This document shows positions 25,816 to 30,810 of a DNA stretch of 64,000 nucleotides, piece by piece. This DNA is from Arthrobacter sp. MYb227 (GTDB lineage: Bacteria > Actinomycetota > Actinomycetes > Actinomycetales > Micrococcaceae). The stretch lies in contig NZ_PCPT01000003.1 of the NCBI RefSeq assembly GCF_002975435.1, positions 248,001 to 312,000 on the forward strand, written 5' to 3'. The translations under genes were made by a program, and so were the position numbers. The notes beneath the pieces are model-generated. The model searched no databases. It saw only the letters and a program-made list of their open reading frames with translations, and was not told the origin of the DNA. Position 1 is the stretch's first letter, and each line of letters starts with the position of its first letter.

Positions 25816-26499
25816 CTAGGTGTTGTCTGATTTCTTCCAGTTCGGCAGAAACTTCTTCCGCACTTTACGTGTAAGTGCCAGCAGCTCCGGCCCTAGGAAA
25901 AGAAACGCGATCAAGTACGTGCCGGTCAACGAAAAAAGAATTATGAGACCGATCGGGATAAACGATACTAAGTAATCAAGGAAGTCGGTGGGTACATACG
26001 GGTCGTCAAAGTTGGTCGCAACGATATGTGACTTATCCGCTGGATCCACTACCACTTGAATTGTGCTTCCTACTGACGGGCCAACATCCGGGTAGCCACT
26101 GTGGCACAGAAGCACACGCTGTCCTTGTATTTCAACGTATGTGGTTTCGGTTTTCCCATTTGACCACCAGGGTCTATTCACGACGAGAGCTTCTTGGGGC
26201 TTAACGCTCTGCACCAGAGCTATATCGGCTATTCGATGCTCTTCGGCGGCGGTGCTTTCCGTATGAATCCATATGATTCCTACGATCACCACCAGCACAA
26301 GAAGGAATCCTCGAATGGCGACGTGCCATGAATGGAGCGCGCCCAATAACCGTGTGAAAATTCCAGGCTTATTACGTTTTCGATATGAAGCACGTTGCCG
26401 CCGAAGCCGTTCGGCGGTTCGTCTTGATTCACGCAACTCGGCGCTCGCCTTGCGTTGGGACCGGGTCATCTTTGGCGGAGCCAAGTAGGTGCCTTTCAC
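25816..26499 (-). CDS. DUF3592-like membrane protein
   Basis: A 227-residue protein. A long basic N-terminus (RKASAELRESRRTAERLRRQ) precedes a membrane helix (FLLVLVVIVGIIWIH), an outside domain with strands (TTYVEIQGQRVLLCHSGYPD, then GSTIQVVVDPADKSHIVA) and a second membrane segment near the C-terminus. The outside domain has the pattern of DUF3592. The start is GTG 26499 or ATG 26469. The divergent gene at 27040 has a similar plan. Function unknown. Confidence 0.6.
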   Translation of the reverse strand: MKGTYLAPPKMTRSQRKASAELRESRRTAERLRRQRASYRKRNKPGIFTRLLGALHSWHVAIRGFLLVLVVIVGIIWIHTESTAAEEHRIADIALVQSVKPQEALVVNRPWWSNGKTETTYVEIQGQRVLLCHSGYPDVGPSVGSTIQVVVDPADKSHIVATNFDDPYVPTDFLDYLVSFIPIGLIILFSLTGTYLIAFLFLGPELLALTRKVRKKFLPNWKKSDNT

Positions 26500-27039: not shown

Positions 27040-27654
27040 ATGCTCTCGTCTGATGATGTTGTGAACGTGTCGTTTTCCGAGATGCCTTGGACATGGAGTC
27101 GCGTTCTAGACTGGAGAAGTGAAAAAGAGTCCCCATCTGTATCAGTTCAATTGATGCGACTAGTGCTCCGGCGTGTTCTTGCCGTCATTATTGCTCTCGG
27201 GCTGCCTGCGCTGGCAGTAAGTGCTGTTTTTCTCGGTTCAGATACATCGGCTGAGTATAAGAATCTGGTGGAGACAGCACCTAGACAAGTCGCCACGGTA
27301 GTAGAGGTACGTGAACATTTTCGGGGACCCACGGAGTACGTGGTTGAATCCAATGGAAATCGATTCACGCTTGGACACAGCGAAGCGCTCGACACTCTTG
27401 AGGTTCACCCTGGCGACACCGTAGCGTACGTCATCGATACCGTCGATCCATTGTGGACAGTCGGAGTGGGAGACCCCGAGTATTGGGAACCGAATTTAGC
27501 TCGTGATGTATTCCTGCCCGTAGGGATTGTCGGTTTTTCACTAATCTTGGCTCTCTTTGTAATCGACTGGTTACTCCCTGCAGGTTTCGAACGCCAGAAG
27601 AAAACAGGCCGAAATATCAGAGGAAGGCGCTCGGCCGAGAAGCCAACGGACTAG
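27040..27654 (+). CDS. DUF3592-like membrane protein
   Basis: A protein of up to 204 residues with one helix (VLAVIIALGLPALAVSAVFL), an outside domain (EYVVESNGNRFTLGHSEALD, then HPGDTVAYVIDTVDPLWTVG) and a second helix (VGIVGFSLILALFVIDWLLP). The plan mirrors the divergent gene at 25816-26499. The first 38 residues are atypical, so the true start may be ATG 27154 (MRLVLRRVLAV). Function unknown. Confidence 0.55.
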   Translation: MLSSDDVVNVSFSEMPWTWSRVLDWRSEKESPSVSVQLMRLVLRRVLAVIIALGLPALAVSAVFLGSDTSAEYKNLVETAPRQVATVVEVREHFRGPTEYVVESNGNRFTLGHSEALDTLEVHPGDTVAYVIDTVDPLWTVGVGDPEYWEPNLARDVFLPVGIVGFSLILALFVIDWLLPAGFERQKKTGRNIRGRRSAEKPTD

Positions 27655-28460: not shown

Positions 28461-28491
28461 TTGACCCTCAAGCGGGTTGAGGGCTCATTAT
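28461..28491 (+). promoter_or_regulatory. MerR-type promoter with 19-bp spacer
   Basis: TTGACC (28461-28466) and CATTAT (28486-28491) are separated by 19 bp. CCCTCAA-GCGGG-TTGAGGG (28465-28483) is a perfect dyad that fills the spacer. An overlong spacer with a central dyad is the hallmark of MerR-activated promoters. Transcription would begin about at the ATG (28499), giving a leaderless mRNA. Confidence 0.8.
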
Positions 28492-28498
28492 TGAGGGT

Positions 28499-29539
28499 AT
28501 GGAAAACGAACTCTTCAGTATCGGTGATACCTCACGTCAGAGCGGGTTAAGCGTAAGCGCCCTGCGGTTCTATGATCGTGTGGGTCTGCTGGTGCCGGCG
28601 TGGGTAGATCCAGCAACTGCGTATCGCTGGTACTCACAGGAACAAATTCATACTGCCGAGTTGGTCGCTGTCCTGCGCCGTGTGGGCTTGGCACTGCCCG
28701 AAATTTCTCTGATTCTGTCGCCCGATCATGACAAAGATGTTTTGCGAGAAGTTCTTGCCGAACACGTGGTTCGCCTTGAACAGGGACTGACTTCGGCCAA
28801 GGCAAAGGTTGGCCAAATCGTGGCCCGCTGGGGGACCGATGAGGGCGTAGAGGCCAGCGCAGAGATTAAGGTAAGTTCACAAGAGCTGAGAGCTGCCTTG
28901 AGCTCGGTGCGTTTTGCGATGGGGGATGACGAGCAGTTCCCCGCATTGCATGGAATTCTTTTTGAAGCAGCGGAGGGGTTCTTGAACGTGAGTGCAACGG
29001 ACCGCTTCCGTGCTGCGTTCTACAGCATGGAAGCGGCCACAGGAGTATCCACGCTTCGAAAGGTTCTAGCAAAATCAGCTGTAGAGGAATTGAACGAATT
29101 CCTTCAACCTCAAGGTGAAGTAACCCTGACATTCGCCGATGATCTTCACCTCGTTCTTGGCGGAGGGACCTTGACCTGCCGGCTGTTAGATGTCGACTTC
29201 CCCGATTTGACGCACCTCACAACGTTCCCTGAGGAAGGTTGCCGGGCCGAGGTGGATCGTGAATGGCTACGCCAGACACTTGGAGAAGACCTTGTGGCCG
29301 AACGCTGGCTGATAGAGATTGACGCCGATGGTGAGCTTCTGGTTGGTTCTCAAGACGAAGCACGCAGTGAACAACACCTGCTCCTGCAGGCACAGTATCT
29401 TTCGGAAGCTATTGAGGCAGCAGGTAGTGGACAGCTGAGCTTGGAAATAAATGGACAGTTTGCTCCATTAGCCATTCGTCGAACAGATAAGCCTGGAGCC
29501 TTTTCGATCCTGATGCCGATCCGCCGAGACAAACCATGA
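28499..29539 (+). CDS. MerR regulator fused to a sliding-clamp-like domain
   Basis: A 346-residue protein. Residues 1-75 are a MerR winged helix (LFSIGDTSRQSGLSVSALRF, then YRWYSQEQIHTAELVAVLRR) and 85-115 the usual dimer coil. From ~125 the protein resembles DNA polymerase III beta-clamp domains: VSSQELRAALSSVRFAMGDD, then PALHGILFEAAEGFLNVSAT, and an end APLAIRRTDKPGAFSILMPI like the clamp terminus. The clamp fold probably serves as a ligand or dimer platform. It overlaps the MFS pump by four bases and has a MerR-type promoter, so it very likely activates its own operon when it binds the pump's substrate. Confidence 0.8.
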   Translation: MENELFSIGDTSRQSGLSVSALRFYDRVGLLVPAWVDPATAYRWYSQEQIHTAELVAVLRRVGLALPEISLILSPDHDKDVLREVLAEHVVRLEQGLTSAKAKVGQIVARWGTDEGVEASAEIKVSSQELRAALSSVRFAMGDDEQFPALHGILFEAAEGFLNVSATDRFRAAFYSMEAATGVSTLRKVLAKSAVEELNEFLQPQGEVTLTFADDLHLVLGGGTLTCRLLDVDFPDLTHLTTFPEEGCRAEVDREWLRQTLGEDLVAERWLIEIDADGELLVGSQDEARSEQHLLLQAQYLSEAIEAAGSGQLSLEINGQFAPLAIRRTDKPGAFSILMPIRRDKP

Positions 29540-30810
29540 ATGTGGTGCCGGGGCCGCAAATTTCGGCACTGCCCATTCCTACACGCTTTTGGGTTTGGCT
29601 CGGTGGCTTGAGCCTTGCCTCTCTGGGTACCCAAATTCTTGGTTTTGCGATGGCTTGGGTTGCGGCTGGATACGGCGGGGCGTTTGCCGGATTAGTGCTT
29701 GCAGCAATTAACCTCCCACGCACACTGCTGTTACTGCTCGGTGGAGCGGTTGTTGACCGAGTGGGTGCGTGGCGTGTGATGCTTTGCGGTGATGCAGTCA
29801 TGACACTGGTAACCGGTATTTTTGCCGGCGCCTTGTTAGTGTGGGGTCCTAGCCCGTGGCTACTGCTTCTAGTTGCAATTCTCATGGGCACGGTCGACGC
29901 GTTCTATATGCCAGCGTCGGGTTCTATGCCGCGACGACTCGTGCCCGATGAAAAACTTGCCCAAGCCATGTCGGCAAGGCAAATCAGTGTTCAGCTAGCG
30001 GCAGTTGTGGGCGGACCGATTGGTGCCTTCGTGGTGGCAAGCGTGGGAATTGCTGCCGCAGCTATCGTCAACTCTTCGGCCTATGCCGTGATGTTCTTGA
30101 TTCTCTTGCTTATCCGTCCCACAAATGGCGTGCAACAAATCGAGCCGGCTCCGGTTGAAACTAAGAAGGCAAAGTTTGGCCAAGCAGCGTTGGAAGGATT
30201 ACGCATTTCGCTCACTGACCCCATTTTGCGGCCAGGGCTTTTGATGCTGATTGGGTGCGCCGCGTTCTTGCTGCCGGTACTTTCATTGCTTCTTCCGGTA
30301 CTGGCCCGCCAGCAAGGTTGGGAAGCGACCCATGTGGGTCTCATCTATGGGGTATCTACGGCATTTACAGCGATCGTTGCCTTGTGGGTTCTGCTCACTG
30401 GAGGCTTTACTCAGCCCGGGCTTGCCGGATGCGGCGGTCTTGGTATCGCCGCTGTGGGAATTCTGGGACTGGCGACGCTTCCGGGGCAAGCATTGTTGGT
30501 TACTTCCGGCGCGCTGGTTGGCCTCGGTGTGGGTCTCTTCAGCACCCATATTGGCCCGCTTTTGCTTGGTGGAACCCCACTAACGCATCTGGGGCGGGTG
30601 CAAGCTGTCGTGGCGATCGCACAGAGCCTGCCATTGTTAGTGAGCAACTTTATGCTGGGGTCCTTGGCACAATTCACCAGCGCCCGGGTTGCGCTAGTTT
30701 TTTGCTCGGTCCTGCTTGTTTTGACGGCAATCCTTGCTCTGGGATCAACGCAATTGCGTAGTTCCCGCCGTGTTCGTGAAGCCGAGAAGAAGCAAAAAGT
30801 CGCCGCATAA
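29536..30810 (+). CDS. MFS transporter, coupled to the MerR-clamp regulator
   Basis: A 424-residue MFS protein with about twelve helices. The loop after helix 2 is GGAVVDRVGAWR and there is a long central loop (NGVQQIEPAPVETKKAKFGQ). It belongs to the MFS group that exports macrolides or related compounds, judging by the N-terminal WLGGLSLASLGTQILGFAMA. Translation is coupled to the regulator by ATGA. Probable role: export of the compound sensed by the regulator. Confidence 0.85.
   Translation: MNVVPGPQISALPIPTRFWVWLGGLSLASLGTQILGFAMAWVAAGYGGAFAGLVLAAINLPRTLLLLLGGAVVDRVGAWRVMLCGDAVMTLVTGIFAGALLVWGPSPWLLLLVAILMGTVDAFYMPASGSMPRRLVPDEKLAQAMSARQISVQLAAVVGGPIGAFVVASVGIAAAAIVNSSAYAVMFLILLLIRPTNGVQQIEPAPVETKKAKFGQAALEGLRISLTDPILRPGLLMLIGCAAFLLPVLSLLLPVLARQQGWEATHVGLIYGVSTAFTAIVALWVLLTGGFTQPGLAGCGGLGIAAVGILGLATLPGQALLVTSGALVGLGVGLFSTHIGPLLLGGTPLTHLGRVQAVVAIAQSLPLLVSNFMLGSLAQFTSARVALVFCSVLLVLTAILALGSTQLRSSRRVREAEKKQKVAA

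Follow-up and report, generated by a model that had tools for sequence, protein, structure and literature searches.

Activators of the MerR family distort and switch on their promoters in response to a ligand. BmrR, an activator of a major facilitator superfamily (MFS) pump, acts at a promoter whose long spacer contains a dyad, and it joins a MerR helix-turn-helix (HTH) and a long helix to a C-terminal, GyrI-like ligand domain. In BlaR1/MecR1, which sense beta-lactams and signal through a membrane protease relay, the sensing domain resembles the target of the drug. The TipA class (TipAL/TipAS, AlbA) has been presented as a group of minimal autoregulated resistance systems (PMC7762955), and the griselimycin and mycoplanecin gene clusters are described as carrying an extra dnaN, the clamps GriR and MypR, for which a role in self-resistance was inferred (PMC10817943). 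Here we analyzed a 64,000-nucleotide stretch of Arthrobacter sp. MYb227 (contig NZ_PCPT01000003.1, positions 248,001 to 312,000; hereafter the window), which encodes a MerR protein fused to two domains of the sliding clamp (beta clamp, DnaN) and coupled to an MFS pump. We propose, with modest confidence, that this protein is a ligand-activated MerR-family regulator whose effector, a truncated sliding clamp, senses clamp-directed antibiotics. Swapped effector domains are already known among MerR drug sensors; new here is the use of a sliding clamp as the effector, the apparent targets being pump genes and dnaN, and no description of a MerR/clamp fusion was found in the openly licensed papers searched, a description elsewhere being possible.

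The fusion consists of two clamp domains on a MerR protein, being DnaN-like but itself no clamp. Within one open reading frame (ORF), the winged HTH at residues 6-73 matches the Pfam family MerR_1 (43.4 bits against a cut-off of 21.6) and residues 125-236 match DNA_pol3_beta_2 (51.6 bits against a cut-off of 27), which bears out a preliminary description, made from the sequence alone, of a clamp fold joined to a MerR DNA-binding domain; no TipAS domain was found in the Pfam scan of the fusion. In a phmmer search of PDB sequences the N-terminal part was matched best by BmrR, and stretches within residues 115-322 by beta clamps. With the NCBIfam DnaN model TIGR00663 the protein scores 72.4 bits, below the equivalog cut-off of 137.65, and it is therefore DnaN-like without being a DnaN. 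Domain III of the window protein is too diverged for a Pfam match; among four relatives scanned, three gave weak, sub-threshold matches to PF02768 (L024, L026, and L060; 19.7-21.3 bits, cut-off 27) and L021 gave none.

The fold was predicted with AlphaFold2 (AF2) from an alignment of 80 family rows (mean pLDDT 91.9, pTM 0.76). A scan of species genomes gave at least 80 loci, all of them full-length fusions. Strands of the model continue to the LMPIR end, and all 50 PDB matches listed by Foldseek are beta clamps or clamp-holding complexes, a griselimycin-bound clamp among them (E from 2e-15, 241-262 columns; TMq 0.53-0.58, with the clamp part alone aligning). Structure prediction had been set beforehand as the test of the claim that the C-terminal part resembles a clamp down to an LMPI end; it found the clamp fold, and the claim stands. 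A chance resemblance is ruled out by the Pfam, PDB sequence, and fold matches. Of the three domains expected of a DnaN subunit, domain I is absent and domain II- and III-like parts are present. Antiparallel dimerization by a long helix after the HTH is a trait of the MerR family, and the helix modeled at residues 79-113 is presumed to be the dimerization helix of the fusion. The order of HTH, long helix, and C-terminal ligand domain is thus that of BmrR, whereas two thirds of a sliding clamp take the place of the GyrI-like effector.

The clamp pocket is described as binding the clamp-binding motif of all known partners (PMC11139829), and griselimycin as binding between clamp domains II and III (PMC5694481). 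To follow the subsite residues given in PMC11139829, 80 fusions were placed in one alignment with the DnaN of E. coli and 21 DnaN of actinobacteria. In E. coli numbering, T172, R176, and P363 are kept in 80/80 fusions, P242 in 79/80, M362 in 78/80, and R365 in 70/80; position 323 is Y or F in 80/80, and R152 is lost in nearly all. Within the clamp part of the fusions, conservation is among the highest at the ATDR.R, FPD, and MP residues, and M339, P340, and R342 of the window fusion align with M362, P363, and R365. Over the 71 columns with 85% or more conservation in DnaN, retention was 70% at the 16 pocket positions (85% when similar residues are counted) and 39% (44%) elsewhere, an excess with p = 0.003 for identity and 0.0005 for similarity. 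This pattern suggests that the peptide/griselimycin pocket between domains II and III is largely kept. At the dimer interface, L273 falls in a gap in 80/80 fusions and E304 is lost, the domain III alignment being uncertain here.

The fusion gene is preceded by a promoter in which -35 TTGACC (28461-28466) and -10 CATTAT (28486-28491) are separated by a 19-bp spacer. Between the two elements lies a perfect 7+7 dyad, CCCTCAA(5)TTGAGGG (28465-28483; arms 28465-28471 and 28477-28483), in agreement with the MerR promoter and filled spacer described beforehand. This pattern, allowing up to three mismatches, has a single match in the window (with 0 mismatches) against 0.01 expected. The ATG at 28499 starts 7 nt after the -10, so that the mRNA of the fusion should be leaderless. 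Over the 80 loci the 31-nt operator block has the consensus TTGACCCTCGACCTGGTCGAGGGCCCAGAGT; on a simple consensus score 68 loci reach 11/11, 11 reach 10, and one (L024) reaches 8, that is, a block of the same layout (10-11 of 11) precedes the fusion in 79/80 relatives and a weaker one precedes it in the remaining locus. The -35 begins 37-39 nt before the matched start in 67/80 loci, matched starts in this survey not always being true start codons. Pairing over the seven dyad positions averages 5.7/7, compared with 1.9 when the centre is shifted, and reaches at least five positions in 74/80 loci. Fusions of a distant clade (see below) carry TTGACCTTCAAGTTGGTTGAAGG-type blocks. As in MerR activators, the operator dyad lies inside a promoter spacer of 19-20 bp.

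The start codon of the MFS gene lies inside the stop codon of the regulator gene (ATGA overlap; Table 1), and the coupled pump of the preliminary description is thereby confirmed. In eight loci a window-type MFS gene is joined directly to the fusion, the gene ends overlapping (the window, L004, L024, L033, L043, L020, L060, and L022; L033 and L019 are the same locus, and L060 is Streptomyces sp. VRA16), and in the six genomes searched the coupled MFS is the only match at E<=1e-20. Seven of these loci were placed in the tree (L020 was left out), where they occupy three places, with five in Micrococcaceae, one in Streptomyces, and one in the distant clade, a placement that does not separate gains from losses.

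Table 1. Positions in the window of the fusion gene, its promoter, its domains, and the coupled transporter gene.
Feature	Coordinates	Strand	Evidence
MerR-type promoter/operator	28461..28491	+	Sequence; same layout upstream of relatives
MerR/beta-clamp fusion regulator, 346 aa, ATG 28499	28499..29539	+	ORF, Pfam, phmmer, AF2, Foldseek
MerR HTH domain, residues 6-73	28514..28717	+	Pfam MerR_1 43.4 bits
Long helix/linker, residues 79-113	28733..28837	+	AF2 secondary structure
Beta-clamp domain II-like, residues 125-236; ATDRFR pocket loop 166-171, FPD 234-236	28871..29206	+	Pfam
Beta-clamp domain III-like, residues about 246-342, LMPIR end	29234..29524	+	AF2/Foldseek
MFS efflux-type transporter, 424 aa, ATGA overlap with regulator	29536..30810	+	Pfam MFS_1 110.8 bits

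The fusion family is widespread but patchy in actinobacteria, with Streptomyces, Micromonospora, Kitasatospora, Nesterenkonia, Pseudonocardia, and Nocardioides among the genera that have it. It is present in 2/15 genomes of the genus of the window and 7/295 genomes of its family (E <= 1e-20), and full-length matches occur in at least 11 of 396 genomes of a phylum sample, a lower bound because at most five candidates were scored per genome. Clamp-domain matches in the window genome comprise the fusion and one ordinary dnaN, and none other. A tree of 89 rows, whose bootstrap had not settled, separates a main clade of 81 rows from a distant clade of 8 rows; the window protein falls in a group with Arthrobacter sp. 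ATA002 and its own congener, which two Nesterenkonia join next. One locus with a stop in the reading frame (L091) was excluded from the alignment, the tree, and the pocket counts. Large linear plasmids of Embleya and Streptomyces carry the fusion as well (L013, L014, and L015), a location that could allow transfer. Full-length relatives annotated on plasmid records are named only "MerR family transcriptional regulator", and two of the best nine plasmid-record relatives are without annotation at the position of the fusion.

Ten fusion-bearing genomes were searched for the operator with up to two mismatches. One site each was found in 6/6 Streptomyces genomes and in one Phytoactinopolyspora, by position the promoter of the fusion itself, and with this restriction to its own promoter the Streptomyces system would resemble the autoregulated TipA class. 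Two Micromonospora genomes contained three and four sites, and a Nocardioides genome contained zero at this threshold. In both Micromonospora species there are extra sites, one before dnaN and one where an MFS gene starts, and one species has a further site (2 mismatches) before a gene for a tetratricopeptide repeat (TPR)-like protein. Six weaker sites in the window genome (2-3 mismatches) were also considered, four of them within 6 mismatches of a longer pattern, and none was convincing; one of the weak sites (L137) is followed at 36 nt by a TTG that opens a frame of 209 codons, which probably belongs to a longer gene.

A search of the genus Micromonospora revealed 289 sites in 97/101 genomes, and the reversed pattern gives 3. 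We classified 149 of the 289 sites, from the 48 of the 97 site-bearing genomes with a complete, checked set of sites (G739, with a partial set, was left out), as 47 fusion promoters, 43 sites before dnaN, 30 at a first-type MFS gene, 18 at TPR genes, 5 at a second MFS, 2 at doubtful TPR genes, and 4 without an assigned gene. Of the first-type MFS orthologues found, 28/29 carry the operator site, and two further sites counted here belong to short matches (L259, with 47 residues matched, and L261, cut by the contig end). Five sites precede MFS genes whose products are 45-47% identical to the window pump over the stretch fetched, on contigs other than that of the fusion, and a pump lies behind an operator site in 35/48 genomes. 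The 78 sites beyond the located dnaN and MFS sites were read individually and 74 of them assigned; 0/74 precede another MerR gene, and a second Micromonospora MerR was rejected as owner of the operator. Main-clade fusion and first-type MFS are both lacking in the four site-free genomes (G717, G744, G763, and G785), and the main-clade fusion is present in 24/24 other Micromonospora genomes tested. Fisher's test gives p = 0.0005 (43/48 versus 0/4), a value that ignores kinship and the choice of the 48 genomes as having sites. In one genome, two near-identical open frames of about 145 codons (L232 and L233) have an operator-like site (2 mismatches), with a GTG 37 nt on.

The operator lies 688-704 nt upstream of dnaN in 43/48 Micromonospora genomes. 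In an alignment of 12 site-bearing upstream regions (one of which, L174, has 3 mismatches) it precedes DnaA-box-like repeats, and in four regions measured it lies 67-164 nt past the end of dnaA, both dnaA and the repeats having been recognized by eye. The site keeps the promoter layout and is oriented toward dnaN, as at the pump and self promoters. Two Micromonospora genomes have a second dnaN. The one in G710 (L186, 8686-9816, minus strand; 76% identical to the search DnaN) has phage- or integrative-element-like neighbours, as judged by eye, and is without the operator; it was considered as a drug-resistance clamp and judged to be a mobile-element clamp. The other (G735:C18:118622-119749; 67% identical) lies about 73 kb from the fusion gene.

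Other genes recur beside the fusion. A serS-type gene follows it in 14/15 Micromonospora loci, in 13 of which it lies 23-654 nt on, measured by the first start codon (the identity of one copy was confirmed by Pfam). In Pseudonocardia nigra and in eight loci of the distant-clade type (L016-L018, L021, L023, L194, L195, and L198) the gene after the fusion is a TPR gene; unlike these eight, the MFS-coupled L022 has no TPR gene after the fusion. A small TPR-like protein of about 140-217 aa thus recurs beside the fusion or behind the operator, in these eight loci and in L148, L155, L158, and L102, and the three copies scanned gave weak, sub-threshold Pfam TPR matches. It is possibly a partner of the sensor. 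MFS and TPR partners recur both in cis and in trans, which supports a single function.

Together with the logic of MerR regulators, these findings favour a ligand-activated regulator that acts on its own gene and on a pump. Because the sensor keeps the fold of the target and most of its drug pocket, and because in Micromonospora the operator lies upstream of the target gene, a clamp-directed antibiotic would be the most economical ligand. We see an even chance that the family serves actinobacteria broadly as an alarm for clamp inhibitors, built on mimicry of the target, that switches on export, a decoy, and, in Micromonospora, a replacement clamp. A clamp-directed antibiotic, whether griselimycin- or mycoplanecin-like or other, would bind in the pocket formed by domains II and III, thereby changing the MerR dimer, which would sit on the operator and re-align the 19-bp-spaced promoter. 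The fusion itself would then be induced, yielding more sensor and possibly a drug-soaking decoy, and the co-transcribed MFS pump would be induced with it. In Micromonospora the same operator would also raise the supply of dnaN, of a second pump type, and of the small TPR protein. Griselimycin resistance in mycobacteria is reported to have depended on amplification of the dnaN/ori region (PMC5694481), and raising the dose of dnaN is therefore a known escape route. That the pump substrate might be a clamp-binding antibiotic, with the fused domain as both decoy and sensor, had been offered as speculation; it gains circumstantial support from the pocket, the lost dimer interface, the recurring pump linkage, and the operators at dnaN and pump genes, while sensing and decoy activity are what we would infer from them.

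The proposed alarm can be set beside the described systems. With the TipA class the fusion would share an autoregulated regulator able both to sense and to sequester the drug, and as no gene but the fusion was found with an operator in the six Streptomyces, one would naturally guess that it acts there as a sponge, in the manner of TipA; the effector differs (TipAS in TipA, a clamp fold here) and drug sequestration by the fusion is putative. The domain II and III fold and most peptide/griselimycin pocket residues are shared with DnaN, and resistance through an extra clamp-like protein would be the likeness to GriR and MypR (PMC10817943). Unlike DnaN, GriR, and MypR, the fusion has a DNA-binding domain and is without domain I and the domain III dimer-interface residues; lacking these two, it is not expected to form a replication ring and would be a sensor or decoy rather than a working clamp. 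As in BlaR1/MecR1, the drug would be sensed by a relative of its target fold, but by a one-component cytosolic regulator.

Several observations weigh against a sensor of clamp inhibitors. In the window protein the equivalents of R152, L177, and N320 are F147, A172, and Q297. The pocket excess weakens to p = 0.034 (identity) and 0.004 (similarity) in well-aligned parts, and it loses significance when domain II (p = 0.21 and 0.15) or the window protein (p = 0.21 and 0.056) is taken by itself; the excess is thus moderate, and it is the whole family that carries it. A window-type MFS lies directly downstream in only 4/80 scanned loci by a search aimed at this family alone, and the pump was rejected as a universal neighbour on this count. 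Control of dnaN would have to be exerted from a site about 690 nt away at the edge of oriC, and the site (<=2 mismatches) is absent in 5/48 fusion-bearing Micromonospora and also in G710, G714, and G715. In 14 dnaN upstream regions of other genera (Streptomyces, Arthrobacter, Nesterenkonia, Pseudonocardia, Symbioplanes, Asanoa, Nocardioides, and others) the best match has 6 mismatches with a Micromonospora/Streptomyces-type pattern that could miss a diverged Micrococcaceae site; a dnaN site in all genera was therefore rejected, the site being found in Micromonospora only. The dnaN region of the window genome gives a best match of 9 mismatches with the window-type pattern. The site-free genomes, three of which carry a fusion of the distant clade together with a TPR gene of its own, may represent a single lineage and so a single contrast rather than four.

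These points leave room for a generic multidrug or metabolite sensor, in which the clamp fold would be a mere ligand-binding scaffold, as the GyrI-like domain is for BmrR, and the inducer would be unrelated to clamp inhibition. Among known MerR regulators are some that bind diverse drugs and are paired with MFS pumps, the N-terminal part finds its best PDB match in BmrR, and such a sensor could accommodate the changed pocket residues of the window protein and the non-significant retention in domain II. It gives no reason for an operator upstream of dnaN in 43/48 Micromonospora genomes, and the high conservation of ATDR.R, FPD, and MP within the clamp part also speaks against it; we regard it as unlikely. 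A sensor of replication status, which would respond to free clamp-binding proteins or peptides of the cell, or to phage or toxin proteins that attack the clamp, and adjust the clamp supply, with the pumps secondary, appears quite improbable. It would suit the operator at the dnaN/oriC region in Micromonospora and a pocket described as binding the motif of all known partners (PMC11139829), but an intracellular protein ligand would need no export, whereas one MFS family occurs in cis (at three places in the tree) and in trans, together with a second MFS type, and the dnaN site was not found in the other genera examined. That the operator acts on replication initiation, by transcription through the origin or as a protein bound at it, and not on dnaN supply, would fit its position between the end of dnaA and the DnaA-box-like repeats about 690 nt before dnaN, but is very improbable given the promoter layout and orientation toward dnaN that it shares with the pump and self promoters.

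If the fusion does sense clamp inhibitors, an essential part of the replication machinery would have been turned into a gene switch, and the spread of the family would imply that natural antibiotics directed at the clamp are much more frequent in soil than the griselimycins and mycoplanecins known so far. Antibiotics that inhibit the clamp form a rare and validated class, and a dedicated, widespread sensor family would point to a hidden reservoir both of such compounds and of resistance. The fusion promoter would then provide a ready one-promoter reporter for screening soil extracts.

Elsewhere in the window, two genes at 25816-26499 (minus strand) and 27040-27654 (plus strand) encode similar-looking small proteins with hydrophobic stretches, with no Pfam match above the cut-off.

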